Shown: one piece after another, positions 1 to 28,454 of the stretch | Layout of the letters: the number at the start of each line of letters is the position of its first letter | Position numbering within the stretch: position 1 is the first letter of the stretch | Source of the DNA: Rhodosporidiobolus odoratus | Lineage: Eukaryota; Basidiomycota; Microbotryomycetes; Sporidiobolales; Sporidiobolaceae | Length of the DNA: 64,000 nucleotides | Reading direction: 5' to 3' | NCBI GenBank assembly: GCA_034387635.1 | Contig: JAOANU010000010.1 | Location: 186,001-250,000, forward strand | The notes under the pieces: model-generated | Databases searched by the model: none | Told to the model about the DNA's origin: nothing | Seen by the model: the letters and a program-made list of their open reading frames with translations, nothing else | Position numbers and translations under genes: made by a program

Positions 1-2
1 TT

Positions 3-567
3 CATCTGGCCATGAACGCCGGAAAGCTGGCAGCAGATCCCAGCGCCATGAAGACAGACGAGTCGAGCGAGACTCACAATTATGTCGTCTTCGTCGGCGA
101 CGAGGGGGGACAGAAGAACTCTGGCGGTCGTCGAGGAGCGGATAGAGGAGGTCCTCTGATTCGTCGCGCCGCCATCGAATGCCGAGCTCGCGGGATCAAG
201 GCCAAGTTCGTCCGTACCCCGGAGCACTTCACCTCGAAGCGATGCTCAAAGCCCGACTGCAAAAGCGCCAATGGTCTGCGAAACGAGTGAGTAATTCCTT
301 CCAATTCTGTTGAGTTCGAGCAAGCTGACACAGCCTGAGTGCAGGCTCTCCCATCCCCGCTACGCCTCGGGGAGCCCGTGCTATCGAGTTGTTGCCTGTG
401 ATGGACCGGCCGGCCAGAATCGACCGCATGCCTCCCACCGCGACGTCAACGCCGGCGTCAACATCATCGCCAACGGGATCAGCTACCTTCGGAACGGTCG
501 ACAAGCTTGGCAGCCTAGGGCAAAGTCTCAGACGAAGGGCAAGGGAAAGGAAAAGGGAAAGGCATAG
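3..567 (+). CDS. Fanzor/TnpB-like RNA-guided nuclease, C-terminal part (5' end outside window)
   Basis: Two exons are visible, about 3-286 and 345-567, joined by a 58-nt intron (donor GTGAGT, branch GCTGAC, acceptor GTGCAG) that restores the frame. The frame is open to the left edge, so the true start lies outside. The fragment (165 residues from the first visible Met) has the TnpB/Fanzor tail: PEHFTSKRC with a conserved Glu just before TSKxC, a zinc-ribbon-like set of four Cys (CSKPDC, then CYRVVAC), and the RuvC-III motif HRDVNAGVNI with the catalytic Asp. It ends in a Lys/Gly-rich tail. In characterised Fanzors the RuvC-II glutamate is displaced toward the zinc finger, and the Glu in PEHFTSK fits that position. 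Family knowledge: TnpB and Fanzor are RNA-guided DNA endonucleases using a guide encoded at the element's 3' end. The motifs support family membership well; whether the whole protein is intact cannot be judged here. Confidence 0.8.
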
Positions 568-847
568 GGGAGGTAGAAATTGGGGTGGCTGAAGGGTGGG
601 CTTGATTTGGGTAGGAGGAGCGCTTGCCATGATGATAGGACTTCTCTCTCGTAGTACTGTGGCTTCTCTGTTGACTCTTTGTCGCTGTTTCCCCTCTCTC
701 TTTCATCTCTCCCTTCCTGTAATCACGGGTCGCTTGATGCACACGAGAGGAATCAGAGAGCCGAGAACACAGGCTTGGTTTCATGCAACACACAAGTCTC
801 AAGCGGGAAGAAAAGTAGACACTGACGAGAAGGAGGAACTACGAGTC
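568..847. other. Convergent intergenic spacer; only room for the nuclease element's right end and guide RNA
   Basis: These 280 nt lie between the stop of the Fanzor-like gene and the stop of the convergent downstream gene. No coding sequence is supported. Fanzor and TnpB guide RNAs usually overlap or follow the 3' end of the nuclease gene, so any such RNA and the element's right end should fall here. I see no clear terminal repeat, and the left end is outside the window. Confidence 0.5.
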
Positions 848-2032
848 TCAAGTGTAACGAGTGCGCTTGCGGGAGGAGCTACCGTGATCGGCGAGTGCAG
901 CCTGCGGTAGCGACTGGTGAGCACGAGGGAAAGAAAGGAGGGAGCAAGAGAGAGGGGACCGCACCACCTGCTCACGCAACTCGGTGTTCTGCCGGAGAAA
1001 CCAAGTCAGCTCGGAAAAGTAGCAAAAGTAAGAACGAGAGACCAGGCGTACCTCCTTCTTAAGCTCGGCGTTATCGAAGCGGAGTTGCTTGAGCTTGGCC
1101 TCAATTGGGCTGACGGGAGTATAGTCCTGCAGAACAACAAGTCAGGCAAGAAGAGTGGGAGAGGAGAAAGGGAGACAACGTACAAACTCTTTGATCTTGC
1201 CCGTTCCATCCTCAAAGGTGATACAGCCCACCAGCTCCTGAATCTTGCGCATAGCCGCATCTTCGCTCGGCAGAGGAGGGAAATCTTCGGCGCTCAATTG
1301 GGCGAGCTGAAACCTGTGGACGTCGCGATCTTCGAGGTACTCGTCGTAGCCTTGGGCCAGGGCGCATGTGAGCCCGTAGAAGATCTTGTAGTAGGCGCGA
1401 TTCTGGCTAATGTTGAGGTAGTACTTGCTGTCGTCCAGCTCGTGGCCGGTTAAATGGTGGGACAGGTTGGAAATGAGAGAGTGCGGAAGAAAGTCGCATG
1501 TCGGGTCGGGGAACGGGAGAGGAAGCTCGGCATGGAGGCTGTTCTTGTGAAGGTTTGCGATGATATATTCCTGGAGGAGAGTTGGGAGACCGGTCGTGAC
1601 TTGGCCGGCTTGAAGGGCGATCTTGAAGGCGCAACGACAGACGGGGGACAGGTCGCGCAGCCATACCCAGAGGCGACACTGGGCTGACTCGGGCGCATGG
1701 ATGTTGCCGCAGACAAGGTAGGGTCTGCGAGAACCAGTCCTCAGCAAAATATAGAGGAAGGGACAGAGGGGAAATGTACTCGAGGTAGTGAAGGTTTGTC
1801 TTCGAGATCTTGAACTGAGCGGGATACGGCTTACAACCATACTCGAAGCAGTAACAATGCAGGACTGCCAGAGCAAAGGGATCAGCAATCGTAACCGAGG
1901 CGCGGGAAGAGTGAGCGGAACAGGCATACAAGGCTCGAGATCGTCCAGTTTGGCCTGCTCAACAGCCTCAATGGTCTTGAGCGAGTTGCCGTGCTTGTCG
2001 CAGGGAGGAGGCGTATCCTCAACAAAGCCCAT
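848..2032 (-). CDS. Hypothetical protein with C-terminal leucine-zipper-like coiled coil
   Basis: A six-exon model gives 292 residues with all phases consistent. Exons (minus strand) are about 2032-1930, 1864-1780, 1724-1184, 1126-1052, 988-968 and 901-848. It starts MGFVEDTPPP and ends in a heptad-rich helix (EAKLKQLRFDNAELKKE, then NTELREQ) followed by a basic tail, SSSRKRTRYT. The middle has no motif I can name. The tail is spread over two short exons (75 and 21 nt), and the donor after the 21-nt exon (GTGGTG) is weak. A longer upstream open frame reaches 2566, but its composition is not protein-like, so the ATG at 2032 is preferred. Function unknown; a coiled-coil dimerisation role is inference. 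Confidence 0.55.
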
Positions 2033-2564
2033 GATGTGGTTGATGTGGTGATCGATGCGGTGGATGAGAGAAGTGGGGTGAAGGAGAGAAGAAGGAATGC
2101 GGTGCGACCCTGTGTCGGCTGCAGCCAAGGTGGCATTCGAGCAAACAGGAGGCAGGACGAAGCGGGAAGCGAGATTGCCCAGGGCTCGCTTGAGAAGGTC
2201 AGTCATCAGCAAACGAGCGGAGAAATGTGCGGAGTGAATACGTCTTGAACCAGCGCAGAGATCAATCAGACACGTTAACAGGGTACGCTGTGTGAGCAAG
2301 CGAAGCAAGCAGTACAGCGAGACACCTTGCACAGGTTGAGCGAGCCGAGGACCATGAGCGAGCGAGATGACCCAAATTGAGAAGGTCGAAAGGTTGTCAA
2401 CCGGAGAGAGGACCAGAACCGGACCACTGGGGATGAGTAGGCCGCATGCAGGCGAAGTAGACTCGCACAAGAGCGAGGTCGTGCGATGGTTTCCGAGAGG
2501 GATGCTGAAGCGTAAGAAAGTACATGGATGCGTGCACCGGGCACGCCTCCTGAACTCAGTTCTC

Positions 2565-3518
2565 ATGACTTTCTCTCGCGCTTGTCCGCTCTCTCTTTCT
2601 TTCCTTCAGTTCACTCTCTCCCAACAGCATCTTGAACCGAGGTGAGTATCTTGTATCGACTCGTGCTTACCCTTGGGCAAAGAGCTGATCTTCTCTTGCC
2701 CGCTCCGCTCCCTCTCCCGTCCCTCCCTCTGCTACACCGCTCCTCCTGCCGCCTTCTTCGATAGCTCAGCGTTCAAGGATGCCTCCAACCTCACCTGGAC
2801 TGGTCAAGTGCTGGAGGAAGGCAAGACACAGTGAGTCTTTTCTGATGTACTGGGTTTGTCTGAAAGCAGTGGCTGACCCGTAACTCGGCGCACAGGTCTG
2901 TCGATGCGGACCTCCAAGTGAGCAGTATCTGACAGATTTTACGCGTACCCGGCTAACGTGGGACCCTGTTGAGTACCAGGCTCCAGCTGAATCACCCCCG
3001 CATTGTTTCCCTCTCCGTTCATCTCTTCTCTTCTGCTCTGTGGTTTTGAGGTGCGTATGCTTCATATCCCACCAGCGACTGGCCTTGCTGACTTACTCTC
3101 TACATAGCTTCACCCTCCCTCAACCGATCCTCCGCCCCGTTGTCTTGTTGACCCTGGTGCGCGCCGCTTCTCTCTCTCTCGCTCTTTCGAGTATTCAGAT
3201 CTTGACCCACTTGGCTCTTCAGGGCGTCTGGTCATTCCGGCTTGCCGTAGAGTGACTGAGGTGGTGAGGGGAGTTTGTCTCTTTTCAGGCCGCCCAGACA
3301 AGGACGGCGGCAGGGGCCTTTGTGGACCCGGTGCTGTAGCTCAAACCACGTCCGATGAAGCGGGGAGGTTGTACGAGTTTTTGGGAGAAAAGGAAGGGGG
3401 GGATTTGGAGAAGATTAGGGAGAACCTGGAGGGGAGGATGGGGTGGATTTGGGAGGAGGATTTGGAGAAAGAGGTGGAGAGGGTGGGGAGGATGATGAAG
3501 GACTCCGGCAAAGAGTAG
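2565..3518 (+). CDS. Poorly resolved multi-exon small gene, function unknown
   Basis: Several good splice signals bracket short open segments: about 2565-2641, 2765-2830, 2896-2917, 2980 onward, and a final open segment ending at 3518. The second and third read as one frame (FKDASNLTWTGQVLEEGKTQ, then SVDADLQ). The last segment encodes an acidic helical tail, LYEFLGEKEGGDLEKIREN, ending MMKDSGKE. I could not find a splice set that joins the middle to the C-terminal segment without a stop, so the model is incomplete. The CT-rich stretch before 2640 looks like a 5' leader. It is short, helical at the C-terminus and without recognisable catalytic motifs. The alternative is a spliced noncoding transcript with a chance ORF at its end. 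Confidence 0.3.
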
Positions 3519-6902: not shown

Positions 6903-7271
6903 CGGATCCGCTCGGTTCAGCTAAGCGCGGTCGGTGGACTCGTGGGAAAGAAAGAAGGGAGTAGAGAAGCTCCCCAATACCAATATCAGGAGAAGAAAGA
7001 AAGGAGACGACTGGGTCCGAGCGAGGTCTAATGTAAACTTTATCAAGAACTCCGAGAACCCCATTTTGACTACCGCACAACCACCTGAACAGCAGCAACC
7101 AGTCGGCTCAACCCAGTAAAGCCCCAACGAACACTTTTTTGCGAGCTCGCAGGAAGCTCACTTGAGAAGGCCAAGAAAATCACAGCCTCGTCCGTTGCAG
7201 TCTTAAGGCGCTCCGGCTCGAGCTTCTGCGTACTGTACCTCCCTCTGCTACGACAAGATCCCTCTGCCGTT
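6903..7271. other. Intergenic spacer between tandem minus-strand genes
   Basis: This stretch separates the stop of the Ser/Pro-rich gene from the start of the KH-like gene. It must hold the terminator of the former and the promoter of the latter. I see no recognisable element. Confidence 0.4.
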
Positions 7272-24897: not shown

Positions 24898-26086
24898 TTT
24901 CGTGGTGTTCAGAGAGGTGTCACGATTGGTTGTGATGAAAGGAAGAGAGCAAGAGCAAGCTGAACTGCAGAGGCTTGAACAGGCGAGAGCGGAGGTGGAG
25001 CAGAGTGGAGCGAGATGGAGCCCATTCAACTGCAGCGACGCGGTGCTGCTGGGTGGAGGCGTCAAGTGGAGGTTCGAGATAGACGTCCGACAGAGTCTCC
25101 TACACGTCTGAGCAGCGGAAGTTGCGCAGCATTCTGGAGGTAGCGGGTGGAGTAGGGTAGCGAGACAGGACACTCTCCACCGCTGCAGCGTTGTGGGCTC
25201 TACGTCCACTCTCCATCCGAGAAGGTGGAGGATTGAGCAGATGGCCGCGTTGTCCCGGCGATTGCTCGAGAAATGACGGTCGTAGCATGTTATGTGCGTC
25301 AGGCGACGTGGGTATAGCAGGGACACCGGGGCGCCAATCTGCGTGCTGGAGCGGCGAGGTGAGCAGAATTGCAAGGAGGAAGAAAAGAAAAGAAACGCAC
25401 GTTCGCTTGAGTCAGGTCCTACTCGTTGCGGGCATGTCCAGCTGTTCGGTAGCAGTCTCCGCAGCAGTCTCCGCAGAAGGATGAGGCTGAGCAGTACCGT
25501 ACGTGTGCAAGTGAAGCGCGTCGCCGACGACAATCTTCAACTGGGCGCGTCGACCAACTTGACAAGTCGTCGCGCACACCCAGGGCGTTTGCTGCACCCA
25601 GTAGGGCGTTGTCTTACCTTACGCAGCTGCTCGGAGCAGCCGAATAAGCGTCAGGTCAGCTGCTCAGCGAGAATTTGAGCCCTCCTCGAATGACACGCTC
25701 CGACGAGGAGGAGACAGCTTCGATCGGCTTGAAGCTGGCGGACGACAGCCGGAGGTGCTCTGCCGTGTAATTTGGTAGTGTCGTCTAATCTTATATGCTA
25801 CCTGAGCGTAGTATGCTAGCCAACAACCGCCCAAGGTATTCTTGTGTTTGTCCTCCACTATTCGTTTCACTGCAGTTCCTCCCGGTGCATAGCAAATCAG
25901 GCCTTGCCCACTTCACAGTCTCCGAGTCAGTACAGAGCACGCTCGCCTGAGCTCTCGTTTCGCCATCCAAGTTTCCCTGAATTCACTCGCTCAGCACCTC
26001 TCCGCGACCTTGAAGCAGCAGCCAGCGACACCCGCGTAGCACTCTAGTACTCAGCGCAGACGGAGTAGCATTTATAGCAGCATACG
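24898..26086. promoter_or_regulatory. Divergent intergenic region, aldo-keto reductase / KH gene
   Basis: 1.2 kb between divergent start codons. No gene, RNA or repeat was recognised. Open frames on the minus strand here only extend the first exon of the reductase upstream and are not protein-like. Confidence 0.4.
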
Positions 26087-28454
26087 ATGCCGGGCATGTA
26101 CGCAGACCGTGAAGATCTCGGTATGAACGACGCAGTTCTCAAGATCGACAAGTTGGTGAGTTCGCAACCTAGGAAGCAAGCGTCTTACGAGCTCTGGCTT
26201 ACCCGTCCCGATACTCACGTCGATGGCTCATTCCTGCAGGTCGAGGACGAACCGGCGCCGCCACGAGCACCTCTCCCTCGTCCTTCGCCGTCGCAGACTG
26301 CTGCTAACCTCGACCCCAACCTGCGACACTACACGTTCAACCTCCCTGTCGCACGCATCGGCGGCGTTCTTATCGGCGTAGGCGGGCACGGCCGCCGATT
26401 CTTCCTCCAGAGCTCCGGACTAGTCAACTTCCATGTCATCCAGCCTCAAGGTTCTCAAGGTCCCGCAAGTTGCCAGTTGACTGGCACGGTCGAAACTATC
26501 CAGCAGGGTCTGAACATCATCGAGCACCTCGTCTACGTCCAGATGCACGGGCAGTGGGCTTTGCCTGAGTGGAAGATACTGTCTTTTGGAGGACGGAATT
26601 GGGTACGATACGACGCCAGCCGACTCCTCAACTTGGACGGCACGGCTGTGCCCGCCCCGGCCACCCCAGCTGCATCGTCCGCGCCGCCCAAGTCCGCTCC
26701 TACCGGGCCTGCCAACCGTTCCGCCGTTCCCCCTGCTCGTTCTCCGCCTCCCGAAGCTCCCCGCGGTCCAGCAGCCTTCTTCAAAGGGCAGAACGCCGGC
26801 TCCTCTCAACCTACCTCACGCCGCTCCGCTCAGCCGACCCGCACGCAAGAGCGTCCATCCTCTTCTCACCAGCTGCACGACCACCCTCCTTCTCCTCAAC
26901 ACCCAGATGAGCGCCCTCCTTCGCCTCGCCGCAAGTCCTCTACCTCGCAGGTTCGTCGGCGCGATACTCGTTATGCCTCCGTGTCGCCATCGCCATCTCC
27001 GTCACGTTCGCCGTCACCCGAACCTCGTCGTCAGAGGCGCCCATCTTATGACTCTCCGGCCCGCAACGGCAGAGAGACTCGTTCGAGGCGAAGAAGCAGC
27101 TCGCCCCCGCCGCGTCGTGCTCGCTCACCCTCGCCACCGCCTCGCCTCGTTCGCTATGCGCTCGACCTTCCTGTCCCCGGTCTCGGACCCGCCGTCATCG
27201 GTCGCGGAGGAAACGTTCACAAGCGTATTCGTGCCGATGCAGGGCTGCACGCTCTCAGTCTCAAGAGCGACAAGCACGGCGATTTTGTCGAATTGATGGG
27301 TCCGCAAGAGGGCGTCCGCGAAGCCCTCGAGATGCTGGAGGATCACCTGTACCACAGCGGAACGCTGAAGAGCGGCGAGTTGGACGATGTCGACCGCCGG
27401 TGGATCGACTTCAAGGAAAACAAGTGCGAGGTTCTCAGCTCGGAAGAGGCGCGCCGAGCGGAAGAACGCGCTTCATCGATTTTTTACTACCCTACTATCC
27501 TTCCTTTCCGCGCTCTCGGCGAGCCGCTCCACGAGTGTGCCCGCCGCATTGAACGCGTCTCCGGGATCGTCTCCCTTGAGATCGTCCACGACAGGAAGCG
27601 CATCGCTCATCTCGACCTGGTGGGAACGAAGCGGTCTATCCGCCTGGCGCTCGAGGAGGCAGAGGCTATCGTGTACGGCGAGGAGTGGCATACCTGGGAT
27701 TCGACGCAGCGGGACCGTCTGCATGGACGTGCGTGGTCTCGGTTCGCGGAAGGGAGGGCGGAGCGAGTTCGTGATGGTGGACGAGGAGGGAAGCCTCGTG
27801 ACTCCGCCAGGGGAACGGAAAGGACTCGATCTCCTCGTCGTGATCGCAAGGTCGAGATGAGGAGGGAGTCTCGCTCGCGTTCTCCCAGGCGTGAGGAGCG
27901 CCGGCGTGCGTCGTCTCGCACTGGGCGTAAGGCGAACGGCGAGTCGAGCCGGTCAAACGGAGGAGGAGATGTTGAGATGGATGGTGCCGGCATTGGCGGG
28001 AACAGCTGCGAGGTCAGGTGCGTCTTTCCCTCACTGACTTGTCTTTCACTCCCTCGCGATGGCTTTCTTCCTTCTTTCCCCTTTGATCCCTCCCTTCTCT
28101 GGCGTTTCCATTTGTGCATTAACTGACTGTGTGCACTCCATTTTCTGTCCTACAGCATCCCCTCGTCCGCTGCACCGTCATTCCTCGCCGACTCGCCAAC
28201 TGTCACCTTCATCGCTAGTGCAACCGGCTGCAAGCTCTCCCTCCTTTCTTCCCCGAATGGGACCAAAGTGCGCATTGAGGCGCCAGGCTCCGAGGAACTG
28301 GAAGACGCAAAGAGGGATGTCGAGCGTGTCGTGAAAAGACTGGCGAAGGAGGCTGAGGCAGGTACGCGCAGAATCCCTTGCCCTTTTTCTCCCTTCTTGT
28401 CCAACCCTGACTCGTACTCTTCCTGCAGACGCTCCTTCCGCCCAAAGCTCATGA
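26087..28454 (+). CDS. Protein with four KH-like RNA-binding units and an RS-rich linker
   Basis: Four exons (26087-26155, 26240-28017, 28156-28361, 28429-28454) give 692 residues. KH-like unit 1 (about residues 53-125) has GVLIGVGGHGRRFFLQ and unit 2 (about 327-400) has PAVIGRGGNVHKRIRADAG; both keep the IGxGG loop of KH domains. Units 3 (about 439-515) and 4 (about 617-685) are degenerate. Between units 1 and 2 lies a long Pro/Ser/Arg linker with RS dipeptides (SPSPSPSRSPSPEPRRQRRP), and a second RS-rich block follows unit 3. Units 1-3 are each followed by a Trp-containing tail (GQWALPEWK, RRWIDFKENK, EEWHTWDSTQ), also seen in the paralogue at 4-7 kb. Likely a nuclear RNA-binding protein; targets unknown. 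Confidence 0.78.

Follow-up and report, generated by a model that had tools for sequence, protein, structure and literature searches.

Probable remains of a Fanzor/TnpB-superfamily gene on a ~9-kb transposon-like unit in the red yeast Rhodosporidiobolus odoratus

The window analyzed here is a stretch of 64,000 nucleotides (contig C10:186001-250000) from the genome of a basidiomycete red yeast (Pucciniomycotina, Microbotryomycetes, Sporidiobolaceae), assembled in 24.8 Mb and 45 contigs. Its left edge, positions 3-567, is very probably the C-terminal end of a gene of the Fanzor/TnpB superfamily, carried on a ~9-kb transposon-like unit in a copy that has decayed and is most likely dead. The catalytic residues are kept in this copy and its upstream half is broken, making it most likely a relic. 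The C10 copy is a decayed addition to the known TnpB/Fanzor kind, in a genome that has several divergent relatives with long upstream parts.

Two coding exons lie on the forward strand of the window. The penultimate exon (3..286), clipped by the window edge and beginning outside it at about C10:185239, encodes the end of the RuvC domain, the relocated Glu and zinc cysteines 1 and 2; the last one (345..567) encodes cysteines 3 and 4, the RuvC-III RD and a basic tail, ending in a TAG stop at 565-567. They are separated by a 58-nt GT-AG intron (287..344) and form a single open reading frame across it. The splice boundaries and the length of this intron are the same in a second copy of the gene on contig C3, yet its sequence differs. 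An earlier note on this DNA, made from the letters of the window, had proposed a two-exon C-terminus with a clean intron, zinc-ribbon cysteines and a RuvC-III Asp motif, and all three hold: the four Cys codons are read directly at 243-245, 258-260, 379-381 and 397-399, and the RD codons at 439-444, within HRDVNAG. Its reading of the Glu ahead of TSKxC as the relocated RuvC-II glutamate is also borne out, as the Glu codon is read at 222-224 and six residues separate it from the first Cys (E-HFTSKR-C).

Protein pieces of this gene, called family A here, were found in the same two places of the genome, on C10 and C3 (exon 1, two matches among three candidates; exon 2, two among four; the 358-aa exon, two of two). 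Searches with an exon of family B (six of eight candidates matched) and one of family D (six of seven) led to another six places, identical for both queries. These protein searches placed family B at C9:895298-895540 (L008) and C5:610870 (L017), family C at C16:583702 (L018), C16:495222 (L019) and C7:102442 (L021), and family D at C3:935345 (L020). The genome thus holds at least eight Fanzor-like places in four families (six of families B-D and two of family A), one of which appeared in a Pfam family search of the genome. An alignment of five rows (A1) was built from both family A copies and one copy each of families B, C and D.

The RuvC-I Asp, which the earlier note had suggested seeking left of position 1, was found there and completes the D-E-D triad. 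The motif TSFVGVDPGN stands in the leftward continuation of the penultimate exon, from position 7239 of the 8 kb left of the window (L002, in whose numbering window position 1 is 8001), with the Asp codon at L002:7673-7675; GVDPGN is present in both family A copies. The fingerprint stated for Fanzors is a DPG at RuvC-I together with a Glu six residues ahead of the first Cys of the ribbon (PMC10711439). Family A has the DPG, and the relocated Glu is found as E-HFTSKR-C in C10, E-HFTTKR-C in C3 and E-FRTSxx-C in families B-D, where it is kept within DEFRTSxxC and RuvC-I reads DGG, DLG or DTG, never DPG. A broader TnpB/Fanzor signature is given as D-X(125,275)-[TS]-[TS]-X-X-C4-X(5,50)-RD (PMC3627910). 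In A1 numbering, D12 of family A is followed after 185 residues by T198 and S199 and then C202, within the 125-275 range, and the ribbon C202, C207, C228, C234 (C-x4-C / C-x5-C) is followed after 13 residues by RD 248-249. The invariant residues of A1 include D12, G14, E195, T198, C202, C207, C234, R248 and D249. The DPG-to-E distance in family A is 180 residues, above the spacing in the search pattern of PMC10711439, which is printed there as 120160 and which we read as 120-160; the same source speaks of insertions in Fanzor1s.

The HMM search that the earlier note had also advised gave a divided answer. Pfam PF07282 (Cas12f1-like_TNB / OrfB_Zn_ribbon) was matched by all five A1 rows, with a best E-value of 5.2e-9 and 3.7e-4 for the first row, a family A sequence. 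On its own, family A falls short of the curated 26.3-bit cut-off, with 21.0-22.6 bits and E 1.2e-4 to 3.7e-4, the upper score being that of the joined window exons (22.6 bits, E 1.2e-4). NCBIfam guided_TnpB was matched by three of the five rows (best 8.4e-6), and the first row had no NCBIfam match. With the PHROG_506 transposase profile, 5/5 rows gave a match under an E limit of 1, the best at 8e-6 and the one from family A at 0.019, and PADLOC returned weak Cas12 matches alone on A1, with none for the first row. Against PDB sequences, the A1 profile matched seven at E up to 1: two TranC (8.2e-4 and 8.5e-4), the mimivirus TnpB-like L79 (0.017), two TnpB (0.18), a transposase (0.42) and the Guillardia Fanzor1 (0.54), the TranC and TnpB matches spanning just the last ~35 positions of A1. 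A longer alignment (A4), in which a wedge-like stretch ahead of RuvC lines up by eye across the four families, gave PDB matches of the same kind, weaker. With families B-D alone the Spizellomyces Fanzor was matched at 0.94, near chance matches such as fermitin (1.1). No PDB sequence was matched by the joined exons of family A under an E limit of 1, nor did a profile built from its two copies find a nuclease there. The family A profile did match that of families B-D (E 2.1e-5, probability 77%); exon e of family A had no blastp match to the ORFs of families B-D.

These values allow one to ask if family A could be a chance look-alike of TnpB/Fanzor from some unrelated family of zinc-ribbon proteins, as its score under the Pfam cut-off and the want of a PDB match of its own might suggest. 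We consider this extremely improbable. The whole signature is present, with the upstream RuvC-I Asp and the correct spacings, and the match to the families B-D profile, the PF07282 matches in every row and the guided_TnpB matches in three all point the other way. The match of the window exons goes beyond chance, because all five rows match PF07282 and because the changes between the two family A copies avoid amino acid replacement, as described below. The family call of the earlier note therefore stands on the upstream RuvC-I Asp, the relocated Glu, the C4 ribbon, the RuvC-III Asp, the PF07282 match and the weak PDB profile matches. Judged by its sequence, family A is assigned to the TnpB/Fanzor superfamily as a member with the Fanzor fingerprint, an assignment that stops short of a choice between Fanzor1 and Fanzor2.

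The reading frame extends upstream of the window through further exons (a-g in all), among them exon b at L002 3433-5688. From the frames and splice sites common to the two copies we infer a full family A gene of ~1,800 codons, for which we had to guess the first exon and the GC-AG intron that goes with it. Three in-frame stops interrupt exon b of the C10 copy, and close to where exons c and d meet, a difference of one base in length sets these two exons in different frames; exons d-g are open, with no stop. In the C3 copy, c and d are one open frame, and there are two stops: exon b holds the first, the RuvC exon the second, ahead of RuvC-I. Neither copy thus has the intact reading frame expected of an active nuclease gene. 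The earlier note saw no stop or frameshift, which is right for window positions 3-567 and fails in the broken exons upstream. It had also supposed that this may be an intact nuclear gene and had named stops in the upstream exons as the mark of a relic; such stops are present, three with a frame break in C10 and two in C3, and the intact-gene reading is most likely wrong.

The C10 and C3 copies were compared over 1,740 codons. The overall dN/dS was 0.495, with 0.56 for exons a-c, 0.42 for exons d-g and 0.372 for the RuvC-zinc exons f and g together. Single exons ranged from 0.17 (a) to 0.66 (b), 0.68 (e) and 0.85 (d, on 4 changes), constraint being weak or unclear in b, d and e. There were 154 amino acid changes, against 184.6 +/- 7.2 in a neutral simulation in which the same substitutions were randomly placed (0/500 runs as low), and five stop differences against 5.6 expected under neutrality. 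Fewer replacements than simulated, together with stops at the neutral number, indicate that the ancestor was constrained and that stops are no longer avoided. The family A protein was once under constraint.

The differences between the two copies also carry a mutational bias. C-to-T differences were found at 73 of 831 TCG sites, 75 of 2,137 other NCG sites and 192 of 7,480 non-CpG sites; the Fisher p for the TCG excess is 1.7e-8, a value that is overstated, each unchanged site being counted once per copy. The other four copy pairs showed the same direction at non-significant levels (p 0.19, 0.37, 0.098 and 0.058). Repeats of Pucciniomycotina are described as hypermutated at TCG (PMC12730594, whose source is PMC3318451). 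The C10 copy was probably hit by TCG-biased C-to-T mutation resembling this repeat-targeted process: the likeness is the excess of C-to-T at TCG between repeat copies, and the difference is that we infer the cause here, from rates taken between repeat copies. This probable mutation and the interruption of the long upstream part are the reasons for regarding the C10 copy as most likely dead.

A shorter gene could in principle still be working, with a Met start in exon d and an uninterrupted protein of ~730 residues, the broken upstream part being separate or dispensable. Exons d-g of C10 have no stop and hold the wedge-like stretch (by eye), RuvC and the zinc parts, and the fungal Fanzor1 SPu-1-1p has just 633 aa (PMC3627910). 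The absence of lesions from d-g is not itself evidence, because the chance that all four C10 lesions would land in the first 1,008 of the 1,740 compared codons is ~0.11. Exons c and d, one open frame in C3, have the appearance of a single gene; constraint also extends to exons a-c taken together (dN/dS 0.56), stop differences are as numerous as under neutrality, and in the divergent families B and D related ORFs lie a long way upstream of the RuvC part. A live shorter gene is thus quite unlikely.

The gene lies on a dispersed unit of ~9 kb that extends from C10:180357 to about 189341 and, on the other contig, from C3:975378 to about 984354. BLAST aligns the two units over 9,011 columns at 93.9% identity, opening 31 gaps; when they are aligned by MAFFT, the identity is 94.2% and there are 10 gaps. 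The right-hand part fills window positions 1..3341 and ends in GTAGCT (3336..3341), a terminus at which C10, C3 and a fragment on C21 all stop matching. This fragment (C21:286991-288235) has 1,245 bp in common with window positions 2097..3341, at 99% identity, and is the sole truncated one among the copies compared. DNA searches found the right part of the unit in three places (C10, C3 and, for the 1,245 bases at 99%, C21), its left part in two and its middle in two long places plus six short ones of 37-49 bases. The right end is a common base in all three places, with differing flanks beyond it; the left end is not sharp.

These features have to be weighed against a segmental duplication of host DNA, of which the Fanzor-like gene would be a host gene or an old passenger. 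There are two long copies only. No terminal inverted repeat (TIR) was found, nothing longer than 12 bases matching between 900-base stretches around both unit ends, and no target site duplication (TSD) was seen by eye, the left end being vague. Neither a transposase nor a recombinase was recognized in the unit pieces tested. The unit also holds a second reading frame, a multi-exon one on the opposite strand (window 1010..2032, with approximate limits, splicing by eye and a chance-level Pfam match). Against the duplication reading stand the three right ends, which have their last base in common and lie next to unrelated flanks. The TCG-biased mutation is of the kind reported for Pucciniomycotina repeats (PMC12730594), and published Fanzor elements can be without TIRs, as are MCi-2, MCi-5 and CMe-1A (PMC3627910). 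We regard a segmental duplication as unlikely and prefer a transposon-like unit. Near the unit ends, a frame with many short introns (window 2560-3341) seems by eye to stop two bases before the terminus, and to the left of the unit the minus strand of L002 (387-1283) carries an ORF whose CPL1-like domain scores above the cut-off of PF21671 (E 2.4e-9). ARAGORN, run with bacterial settings, found no tRNA in L002, L007, L022, L028 or the window.

Family A resembles the Fanzor1 proteins (SpuFz1 of Spizellomyces punctatus, GtFz1, PpFz1) in its RuvC D-E-D, its C-terminal ribbon with RD and its probable carriage by a mobile element, and in the DPG with a Glu six residues ahead of the ribbon stated for Fanzors (PMC10711439). 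The single ORF of SPu-1-1p sits on an element of ~2.1 kb that has TIRs (PMC3627910). Family A, in contrast, spreads an inferred ~1,800 codons over several exons, no TIRs were found on its ~9-kb unit, its C10 copy is broken and its ribbon is C-x4-C / C-x5-C. With Fanzor2 and the IS607 pro-Fanzor TnpBs it has in common the active-site fingerprint, and L79 is among the better PDB profile matches; it differs from them in its introns, its much longer inferred frame, its DPG-to-E distance beyond the published range (as read) and the lack of a recognized recombinase in the unit pieces tested. MCi-2 and MCi-5 of Mucor circinelloides are fungal Fanzor elements without recognizable TIRs, and MCi-2 copies have their 3' region in common, like the family A copies (PMC3627910). 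Unlike these, the family A unit showed neither a TSD nor a transposase of the Crypton or Harbinger type, and has two long copies only.

By analogy with these relatives, the ancestor of family A was most likely an RNA-guided DNA endonuclease with a RuvC D-E-D site. Its wedge, RuvC and zinc parts would have bound a guide RNA made by the element, as modeled on Fanzor1 structures (PMC11423790), and the complex would have cut matching DNA beside a short motif, for which SpuFz1 serves as the model (PMC10432273). Such cutting may help the element to persist or spread, a benefit likewise suggested by the relatives. Six stretches (five of the window and one of family B) were folded in search of a guide (omega) RNA; with z-scores of -1.24 to 1.42, none stood out.

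Relatives of family A were sought twice among 5.8 billion proteins; none of the 6,145 and 7,993 candidates was accepted, in a search whose length limits leave no room for a protein of 1,800 residues. A control with a host gene (window 26078-28123) gave two accepted matches among 7,989 candidates, including a Rhodosporidiobolus odoratus protein of 99% identity over 94% of the length, so the database does hold proteins of this yeast. In viral contigs, searched with one peptide pattern, 10 stretches matched and none encoded a relative. Published Fanzor hosts, as far as the sources cover them, include early-diverging fungi, some ascomycete yeasts, protists, animals and viruses. Our literature search found no co-mention of Fanzor with Basidiomycota, or of Fanzor with XPG; a major survey, which reportedly covers fungi broadly, fell outside its scope, so basidiomycete Fanzors may already be described. 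TnpB has its eukaryotic counterparts in the Fanzors, which serve as a source of gene-editing nucleases. The presence of four families in a single basidiomycete yeast, with decay in at least one, would widen the host range and show how such elements age, and related yeasts are a place to seek active, unusually large Fanzor forms.

Upstream of the family B and D parts, and on the same strand, lie ORFs of XPG/FEN1-like appearance. Three of four candidates matched, all on the minus strand: C9:899123-899623 and C5:620088-620588 upstream of family B, and C3:938900-939382, with one in-frame stop, upstream of family D. The family D copy has the XPG-like motifs APHEAE, GVDTDN, GQDY and FGLAHAL. The XPG-like N-terminus of B and D gave no match in Pfam or NCBIfam and no relevant one in PDB, and a profile comparison with four host XPG_I exons reached a probability of 23%, covering the GxDY part only. 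The upstream pieces of family A were unmatched among the ORFs of families B-D (best E 0.24). One gene and two neighboring genes are both compatible with the XPG-like and RuvC parts of B and D, and the XPG reading is a lead only. A bolder idea, which we hold to be improbable, is that the red-yeast Fanzor RuvC is the C-terminus of very large transposon proteins (well above 1,000 codons, ~1,800 in A), following an XPG/FEN1-like nuclease-like part in B and D; if true, the transposon would encode an RNA-guided protein with two nucleases, in some cases with DGG, DLG or DTG in the active site in place of DPG.

The C5 copy of family B (C5:606001-622900) has its upstream part present and is interrupted near the middle by an insertion of ~5 kb; with the insertion set aside, the unit can be matched piecewise to C9 over about 9.2 kb. 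The 11-mer GCATTTCATGC, sought at the ends of the family A unit and absent there, occurs 32 times genome-wide against 6 for the reversed control. It marks the right ends of family B (C9 and C5, inverted) and the left ends of family C (L019 and L021), and stands inverted at both ends of a 7.6-kb stretch, C1:902248-909852; it is probably the terminus of another transposon group. Just upstream of the family C copy in L018, an ORF (L018:3-2627) looks by eye like a Ty3/Gypsy polyprotein.
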